Origin: Tubiluchus corallicola
Lineage: Eukaryota; Priapulida; Priapulimorpha; Priapulimorphida; Tubiluchidae
Length of the DNA: 64,000 nt
Reading direction: 5' to 3'
Assembly (NCBI GenBank): GCA_030141605.1
Contig: JAQGDQ010000040.1
Location: 336,001-400,000, forward strand
Position numbers and translations under genes: made by a program. Positions 38,901 through 54,492 of this stretch are shown here, piece after piece. The notes beneath the pieces were generated by a model, which made no database searches, had not been told where the DNA came from, and worked only from the letters and a program-made list of their open reading frames with translations. Positions within the stretch are counted from its first letter, which is position 1. Every line of letters begins with the position of its first letter.

Positions 38901-41900
38901 TTTGTAGACTACAGGTATTATCAGCCTAGTAATATCAAAGATCTTCATATTGCTAGTGTTGATAGGAATAGTAGACTTGTTTACCTGGAGTGGACTGCCC
39001 CGGGTGCATCCCTTGATACCGGAACAGGTAAGCAATGTATCACCTGAGCAACTTAAGAGTCATTCCGCGAGAAAACCATGCAAAAGTCAAAAAAATAGTG
39101 GAAGGTGACAAATCACCGATTTTGTTCATATTCACAGGGTTGGATGATCCCCTCAGATGTACCCCACAGCCAAAATATTAGATATCAAAAATGAGCCGTT
39201 TCGGAGATAGGCCGCCATTTTGATTTTTTTCGGATTTTGGCCATTTTGACGTAAAAAAATGACCTATATTTGTCACATCATTACAGGCAGTAAATGAATG
39301 ATCCAGGACTAGTTGCTCTGTGGTATATATAGTAGGGGTCTTGCCCTATTGCCACATTGAGTTTGATGAATTGAGATTCTCTTTCAGTAGGTATCATGAG
39401 CTCATGAAAGATGCGTGTCTGCTACAGTCTGAATGACACCTTGTTTTAAAATTCTCATAACTCCACTGGGGCGGGTATTTGAAGTATAATTAATATATGT
39501 TTATTTACAGCTTGACCAGGCATACTTAGATCATTAATAAAATTTTGGCCAGCTCGTCCATAAATTGACGAGATTCGATCTTGAATGTGACATAAATCGG
39601 AAAAAAATTAGTACGAATTATTAATAATTCTGAATAAAAAATGAAAATTTCAAAAAGAAACGATAAATTACAGTTTCTGTCTTTCTCTGTCTCTCTGTGT
39701 CTCTGTCTGTCTCTCTCTCTGTCTCTCTGTGTCTCTGTGTCTCTCTCTGTCTCTCTCTGTCTCTGTCTCTGTCTCTCTGTGTCTCTCTGTGTCTCTCTGT
39801 GTCTCTCTCTGTCTCTCTGTGTCTCTGTGTCTCTCTCTGTCTCTCTCTGTCTCTCTCTCTGTCTCTGTCTCTCTTTGTCTCTCTCTGTCTCTCTGTGTCC
39901 TTCTCTCTCTCTCTGTGTGTCTCTCTGTGTCTGTCTCTGTCTCTCTGTGTCTCTCTCTGTGTCACTCTCTGTCTCTGTCTCTGTCTGTCTCTCTGTCTTT
40001 CTGTGTCCCTCTCTGTGTCTCTCTCTGTCTCTCTGTGTGTGTCTCTCTGTGTCTCTCTCTGTCTCTCTCTGTGTCTCTGTGCCTCTCTCTGTCTCTCTGT
40101 GTCTCTCTCCGTCGCTTTCTGTCTCTTTGTGTCTCTGTCTGTCTCTCTGTGTCTCTCTCTGTCTCTCTGTGTTTCTCTCTCTGTCTCTGTCTCTCTCTGT
40201 CCCTCTGTGTCTCTCTCTGTCTCTTTTTATGTCTCTGTCTGTCTCTCTTTGTCTCTGTGTGTCTCTCTCTGTCTCTCCATCTGCCTCTCTGTGTCTCTCT
40301 TTGTCTCTCTTTGTCTCTCTGTGTCTCTCTCTGTCTCTCTCTCTCTCTCTCTGTGTCTCTCTCTGTGTCTCTCTCTCTGTCTCTCTGTGTCTCTCTCTGT
40401 GTCTCTCTGTGTCTCTCTCTGTCTCTCTGTGTCTCTCTCTGTCTCTATGTGTCTCTCTCTCTGTCTCTCTCTGTCTCTATGTGTCTCTTTGTGTCTCTCT
40501 TTGTCTCTCTGTGTCTCTCTGTGTCTCTCTCCGTCTCTCTGTGCCTCTCTCTGTCTCTTTCTGTCTCTCTGTGTCTCTTTGTGTCTCTGTCTGTCTCTCT
40601 CTGTCTCTCTCTCTCTCTGTTTCTGTCTCTCTCTGTGTCTCTTTCTCTGTCTCTGTCTGTCTCTGTCTCTCTCTGTGTGTCTCTCTTTCTGTCTCTCTGT
40701 GTCTCCATCTGCCTCTCTGTGTGTCTCTCTCTCTCTGTCTCTCTCTGTCTCTGTGTGTCTCTCTCTCTATCTCTATGTGTCTCTCTCTGTCTCTCTGTGA
40801 CTCTCTCTGTCTCTCTGTGACTCTCTCTCTCTGTCTCTCTGTGACTCTCTCTCTCTGTCTCTCTGTGTCTCTCTCTGTCTCTTTTGATAAGGAGGTTACC
40901 ATAGCAACACATAGTAGCAGCTTACTGTATGTATTATCAATTATTAGCTTATTATTATTTACTATAGTGCGACTTTTCATTGAATATTGGCTAATAAAAA
41001 ATAGTCGTGGACGTAAAGAATTTGTTGTTGCCTTTTTGCTATTTTGAAAATTTGCGATTATAAGCGTCAGCGCCCTGATTCTCGTTAGAGTTTAGTTGAA
41101 TATGGTAGTCGGTGTATATGCGTATATCTTTACGAGGCGGTGGAAACCTGGCGGTTAAATACAATATGAGCGAATGGCTTGAAACATACGTTGCACAGAG
41201 TCGGAATTAGTATGTAACGGCCGAGGCAGGGTCGTATTGGCCTTTGCTGTGTTTCTTAACCAGTTTTTTTGTTAACGCCCGTTGTTAGTAAGCAGAAGTC
41301 TGGTTGTCGAACTTGCCACACCAAGGTATTAGTAACTAACTAACTATTAACTTGAATTGATTTGAGGAAAAATATCAGGGACTGACAACTATTCGCCTGT
41401 TGAATACAAGACCACACAAAGCTGTGCGCGTTTTAAAAATTGGCTCGCAACATCTTATATTCGATGCTCACGGCGGTTTCAACACAATTTCACAAATAGT
41501 GCCTTGTCTCGCCTTGCCCGCCTTTCTTTAGAATCTTGTTTAGCAAAGCGATACTAAACCTTTTTGACTGAAGTCTATTTTTCAGTCAAGACAGTGGGGC
41601 CCTCCCGAGGCCCCCGTATTGATCCACGGGCCATAGGTATATAGCCCGAGCACTTGTACACGAAACTGTTATTATGTACATGAAATTATTCCGTGTTTTA
41701 TACAGATTATAAAAATCACTATGTTGTAATCGTCACAGGGGCCCTTCGAAGGGAATGCGGCCCCTGATGAGGGGCCTGGTTGCTAGGAGTGCCCAGACAT
41801 GTAAAGCCAGTCCATTATTACTATAAACATTGACGTTGCTGCACTTTGTATCGATTCTAATGGCAACACCGTCATCCAAAGCGAATAGCTAAATATAGGT

Positions 41901-54492: not shown

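Follow-up and report, generated by a model that had tools for sequence, protein, structure and literature searches.

The window, by which we mean the whole 64,000-nucleotide stretch of Tubiluchus corallicola DNA that was analysed, carries a gene model of the CLCA family, whose members regulate mucus and ion channels from the cell surface or as secreted proteins. The model runs over 26738-54492 of the plus strand, has 21 coding exons and is open. Exons were placed by splice sites and reading frame, and the whole gene was rebuilt likewise. Thirteen core exons (26738-37439) are followed by two C-terminal cassettes of four exons each, A and B (Table 1). The core encodes a signal peptide (recognized by eye), the N-CLCA domain, a VWA domain and a beta-sheet-rich region. 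Elsewhere in the window, the minus strand holds a rhodopsin-type GPCR exon and an exon with a Hisat_C match.

Table 1. Features of the window; positions are counted from its first nucleotide.
Feature	Position	Strand	Length (nt)	Phase	Remarks
GPCR exon, rhodopsin type	14641-15573	-			7tm_1, E 4.6e-39
Exon with Hisat_C	20337-20960	-			histidine N-acetyltransferase C-terminal part, E 2.2e-11
E1	26738-26940	+
E2	28446-28695	+
E3	29525-29657	+			zinc motif, REWAR instead of HEWAH
E4	29973-30145	+
E5	31553-31657	+
E6	31856-32026	+			VWA exon with MIDAS stretch, DVSGV
E7	32436-32628	+
E8	33357-33475	+
E9	33602-33770	+
E10	34525-34787	+
E11	35511-35691	+
E12	36555-36730	+
N	37289-37439	+			last core exon before the cassettes
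Cassette A	38908-46579	+		1-1-0-1
A1	38908-39027	+	120	1 to 1	from splice sites/frame and paralog modules
Inverted arms, A1-A2 intron	39082-39553, 41964-42434
A2	45171-45235	+	65	1 to 0	from splice sites/frame and paralog modules
A3	45715-45814	+	100	0 to 1	GC donor; from splice sites/frame and paralog modules
A4	46436-46579	+	144	1 to 1	weak donor gttcac
Cassette B	47294-54492	+		1-1-0-1
B1	47294-47464	+	171	1 to 1	weak acceptor and weak donor
B2	51263-51327	+	65	1 to 0
B3	52658-52757	+	100	0 to 1
B4	54182-54492	+	311		terminal exon including stop

The gene carries the domain by which the CLCA family is defined. According to the text of PMC3650047 this domain is CLCA_N, and three open frames of the gene score above the 25.6-bit cut-off of Pfam PF08434 (N-CLCA/CLCA_N), with 38.6, 54.3 and 25.8 bits. 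Additionally, residues 322-495 match the CLCA VWA structure PDB 6pyo (E 8.3e-8), and protein residues 13-886 align with positions 15-861 of the 863 in the CLCA model TIGR00868 (380.3 bits, E 1.5e-113), a score below the subfamily cut-off of 900.85 bits. Among the matches listed in a frame-by-frame search, the core is colinear with the paralogs that we fetched.

PF08434 matches 28 places in the 343.5 Mb assembly, including three in the window gene. We fetched the regions around the CLCA loci from searches with A and B, and tblastn searches of these regions with A, B and two modules from paralogs gave the module counts. Seven CLCA genes, named here by their contigs, had a recovered C-terminus: the first gene at C2109, C1023, two tandem genes at C1901, C1732, C2239 and the window gene. 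A single module was found in five of the seven, two diverged modules in the window gene and two nearly identical ones in C2239; a run of about 3 kb of N between the N exon and the module of C2109 could hide a second module there, and in all seven genes tblastn would overlook a module that has diverged too far. The second C2109 gene, C1919 and a terminal exon at C2239:162403 do not enter this count, since no complete C-terminus was recovered for any of them. The preliminary description had held that one such module is normal for CLCA genes; the paralogs bear this out, as do the texts of PMC9007345, PMC9651043 and PMC3650047. The window gene thus has two C-terminal FN3 modules where one is the usual state. 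In C2109, C1023, C1901a and C1732, the last exon holds an anchor-like hydrophobic stretch (identified by eye), a tail and the stop. Because these four single-module paralogs have an anchor after the module, we regard A4 as the altered end and B4 as the kept end. The two tandem genes at C1901 (about 191000-216000) are 94-96% identical across several stretches of 1.2-4.3 kb.

The doubling in the window gene is, from its sequence, real and old. A and B are identical at 57 of 156 aligned columns with a local score of 209, compared with a mean of 30 and a maximum of 54 for 1000 shuffles of B. This confirms the tandem doubling of a four-exon cassette claimed in the preliminary description, and on re-derivation we obtained the same phases, the same four shared motifs and the same junctions (37439-38908, 37439-47294 and 46579-47294). 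Exons 2 and 3 do match in length between the cassettes, as it pointed out, but these lengths are family features and no sign of a recent duplication. Exon-length equality says nothing about age because the lengths are inherited across the family: exons 2 and 3 have 65 and 100 nt in C2109, 65 and 97 nt in C1732, and 83 and 100 nt in C2239, and are merged into one exon in C1023 and C1901a. Exon 1 has 120 nt in C2109, C1023, C1901a, C1732, the first copy of C2239 and A, a length from which B1 departs. Over 131 aligned codons, A and B differ at codon positions 1, 2 and 3 with frequencies of 0.46, 0.28 and 0.56, and dN is 0.51 and dS 1.5, which is near saturation. These figures, which come from coding sequence alone, suggest that both copies were kept by selection on the protein while silent sites became nearly saturated. 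An assembly duplication of the window's own A and B was rejected, as the two share only 57 of 156 columns. A module tree neither recovered A and B as sisters nor rejected their sisterhood (p-AU 0.34).

The FN3 label of the modules rests on the alignment of A to TIGR00868 and on the papers cited above. Pfam fn3 did not match A or B and matched one of the seven modules (best E 0.003); a sequence search of the PDB gave no relative of A, and a module profile gave chance-level matches (best E 0.1). Taken alone, A matches TIGR00868 at positions 753-861 with E 3.1e-8; the C2109 module matches this end of the model with E 1.8e-9, and B by itself has no match to it. Over the same end of TIGR00868, core plus B scores 352.6 bits versus 343.4 for the core alone, a gain of about 9 bits. 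When scored with a profile built from four paralog modules, N-A-B yields two domains (140.5 and 110.0 bits), and B1 is the worst-fitting exon, at 21 bits versus 50 for A1. A is the more canonical module; B is diverged but bears the membrane anchor.

The intron between A1 and A2 contains inverted arms that are 82% identical over 479 bp, with TTAA (seen by eye) near both outer edges and a long TCTCTG-rich tract enclosed. The left arm has at least 40 genome matches at 97-100% identity, the window's own included, 40 of 92 candidates having been scored. Judged by these copies, the unit looks like a recently active element.

The other gene with two modules, C2239, resembles the window gene in having two FN3 cassettes and a replaced second zinc histidine (HEWAR). 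It differs in that its cassettes are nearly identical, that no intron lies between them and that its MIDAS is retained as DVSGS. Its two copies match at 99.6% identity along 4702 bp (11 mismatches, 3 gaps). Exon 4 of copy one continues at its end directly into exon 1 of copy two, in frame and intronless; the second copy carries three N at the corresponding place. C2239 is 98.1% identical to contig C1919 over 3485 bp and 95.7% over 887 bp, and C1919 may be the other haplotype or a piece of a tandem gene. Two units taken from copies as different as these should differ more than the C2239 cassettes do, and three bases present in the first copy are missing from the junction. We lean towards a real and recent duplication, although an assembly error may be the alternative; the C2239 doubling would be either an event separate from that in the window or such an error. 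A double FN3 protein would be the simplest product of the C2239 gene. A further terminal CLCA exon at C2239:162403-162591, close to that at C2239:99303-99491, points to a putative additional tandem copy of this gene.

The window gene also departs from its relatives in its zinc motif, a substitution absent from the preliminary description. Six of the eight readable zinc-motif exons encode HEWAH (C1023, C2109 twice, C1901 twice and C1732); the exceptions are C2239 and the window gene, and no zinc-motif exon was found in the C1919 stretch. The window gene is thus without HExxH, which is a usual CLCA feature, though not one required by the CLCA_N definition. Replacement of the first zinc histidine by arginine is often found in CLCA_N, according to the text of PMC3650047. 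The MIDAS motif DxSxS, also usual in the family, is kept in C2239, C2109 (DVSNS) and C1023 (DTSGS) among the matches listed, where the C1732 match ends before the motif and C1901 lies outside those matches; the window gene has a substituted motif here too. In human CLCA2, as described in the text of PMC10669480, the HEXXH motif is needed for cleavage, which can happen in trans, and also for the effect on calcium entry; the same source places the CLCA cleavage site after the beta-rich region and ahead of the FN3 part. The window gene has apparently lost the protease site of its relatives. Because CLCA2 cleavage is possible in trans, the window protein might, by analogy, still be cut by a paralog. 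A link between FN3 doubling and zinc-site loss (two of two doubled genes versus none of five single ones, among those whose C-terminus was recovered) was considered and set aside, as the genes are too few and the counts are not independent if the window gene and C2239 are sisters. An N-CLCA tree groups these two genes with a support of 82/86, which is not firm.

Seven forms of the protein were tested and all are open: the double form N-A-B (1120 aa), N-B (977 aa), N-A read to its stop (928 aa), three A-to-B hybrids (960 aa each) and a form that skips B1 (1063 aa). The preliminary description had likewise listed N-A, N-B and N-A-B, in which we found no internal stops, but not the three in-frame hybrids; its proposal of alternative or double FN3 forms of one gene is partly supported here. 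Its lengths for the three forms (931, 980 and 1123 aa) were 3 aa greater, a gap that fits an ATG three codons upstream, present in the listed frame.

The splice sites at the inner border of the cassettes are weak. The A4 donor scores -1.4. This is lower than any of the 24 training donors, whose minimum in leave-one-out scoring is -0.7, and 20% of the window's 3766 GTs score as well. The B1 donor, at -2.3, also lies below all of these donors, and an alternative donor at 47422 is in phase and weak (-1.8). The B1 acceptor scores -3.9, below all 30 training acceptors (lowest 0.3, scored on themselves), and 28% of AGs score as well; both training sets (24 donors, 30 acceptors) are small. The donor of exon N scores -2.9, lower than the A4 and B1 donors, and homology among the genes sets its position. 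Thus, weak sites are used in the window gene. By comparison, the A1 and A2 donors and the B2, B3 and B4 acceptors score well. The A3 donor at 45814/45815 (GAG/gcaggt) has to be a GC donor because a GT four bases downstream would run into a stop in A4 (by eye), and the homologous place in C1901a is also a GC donor. When A4 is read on, a stop follows at 46650 and AATAAA at 46750. B4 encodes the last FN3 part, a transmembrane segment, a tail and the stop, with ATTAAA/AATAAA at 54508/54512. A short, hydrophobic, signal-peptide-like ATG frame lies at 47250-47312, out of frame with B1 and with its stop inside B1 (by eye).

We propose a model that addresses the origin of the two cassettes, the protein that they encode and its role. 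We give this explanation as a whole, an old tandem duplication in one intact CLCA gene with an N-A-B product and an uncut, membrane-tethered role, a probability of about 0.5. The first part of the model concerns the duplication. An ancient tandem duplication copied a four-exon FN3 cassette that runs from phase 1 to phase 1. The upstream copy, A, would have stayed closer to the canonical FN3 and given up the membrane-anchor portion of its final exon, and the downstream copy, B, would have diverged more and retained the anchor and the gene end. The doubling, its age, the coding constraint on it, the open frames and the substituted motif residues are read directly from the sequence.

The second part of our model is the protein. 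We infer that N-A-B would be the main transcript, so that the predicted order is signal peptide, N-CLCA (with REWAR), VWA (with the substituted MIDAS), beta-rich region, FN3-A, linker, FN3-B, anchor and short tail. At even odds, the most likely product is a CLCA that is anchored in the membrane, carries two FN3 modules and lacks a functional protease. We favour the double form for two reasons: A4 and B1-B3 have been conserved, and C2239 seems to have arrived at such a form separately. Counting against it are the weak A4 donor, the weak B1 sites, the stop and AATAAA after A4, and the better fit of the hybrids to the paralog profile. The model as a whole is further weakened by the failure of B alone to match TIGR00868, by the lack of a Pfam fn3 match to A or B, by the module tree that does not join A and B, and by the chance that the C2239 doubling is an assembly error. 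The linker between A and B contains the stretch RRAR; as a furin-type site it is one of seven RxxR in the protein, and we do not press it.

The final part of the model is the role. A double-form protein would be tethered to the membrane and unable to cleave itself, and its head would stand off from the membrane by one additional FN3 module. It would probably act as a binding or decoy partner of protease-competent paralogs.

The gene might instead use alternative 3' ends, which we consider unlikely. N-A, ending at the stop after A4, would be soluble and secreted, and N-B would skip A and be anchored, so that one gene would make both kinds of protein that vertebrates split between genes. Both frames are open, and the best 19-residue hydropathy window near the end is 0.79 in the A4 read-on, which is no convincing membrane segment, versus 2.49 in B4. 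The weak A4 donor and the AATAAA beyond it are consistent with an end after A4, and the text of PMC9007345 describes both secreted and anchored CLCAs. However, the weak B1 acceptor disfavours skipping from the core to B1, and a nearby AATAAA means little when AATAAA/ATTAAA occur on the plus strand at 2.8 per kb.

Splicing of A1 to B2, A2 to B3 or A3 to B4, which is rather improbable, would yield a canonical single FN3 with an anchor. A4 and B1 would then be rarely used, as their weak sites and the poor profile fit of B1 might suggest, and the strong donors and acceptors named above are those of exons that are phase-matched one for one between the cassettes. The hybrids fit the paralog profile at 155.7-164.7 bits versus 144.7 for A alone and 112.7 for B alone, although this advantage comes partly from joining A1 to the B4 anchor, which A alone lacks by construction. 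Against hybrids, A4 and B1-B3 have stayed open and conserved since a duplication that is near saturation, which argues that both whole cassettes are used.

That cassette B is a separate gene, the outcome that the preliminary description had named as contrary to its own claim, or a dead copy would fit its weak B1 sites and the least canonical exon B1, but is very improbable: B1 has no start codon and an in-frame stop just upstream, 46580-47293 offers nine ATG frames of just 1 to 29 residues, B has no stops or frame breaks and has changed more at third codon positions than at first and second ones, and B4 retains the anchor and gene end that follow the module in the paralogs.

Returning to the double form, we tentatively raise a broader idea, which we think has only a small chance of being right. 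A protease-less CLCA branch may have gained a second FN3 at least twice independently, anciently in the window gene and recently by in-frame fusion in C2239, its members, unable to release their heads, becoming longer membrane-tethered binding proteins; the phase-matched window cassettes may also let a single gene supply any of the double, single, hybrid or secreted forms.

The window gene is like the vertebrate CLCA clusters 2 and 4, as described in the texts of PMC9007345 and PMC9651043, in having N-CLCA, VWA, a beta-rich region, C-terminal FN3 and a single anchor. It is unlike vertebrate CLCAs in its two FN3 cassettes, in REWAR and in the MIDAS sequence DVSGV, and its model has 21 coding exons compared with 14 in the vertebrate genes of the same sources. 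With the substituted-site CLCAs of Lenart et al. 2013 (PMC3650047) it shares the loss of zinc histidines; the text of that paper, whose figures draw domain architectures, does not mention a doubled FN3 for them. Full-text searches of open-access papers turned up no description of a CLCA with a doubled FN3. A substituted protease site together with a doubled FN3 stalk offers a natural test of the roles of the uncut form and of the FN3 part. Additionally, the gene gives a clear example of a symmetric exon cassette with two copies that allow several in-frame combinations. Compared with these known systems, the doubled FN3 cassette is a novel variation within the known CLCA family.
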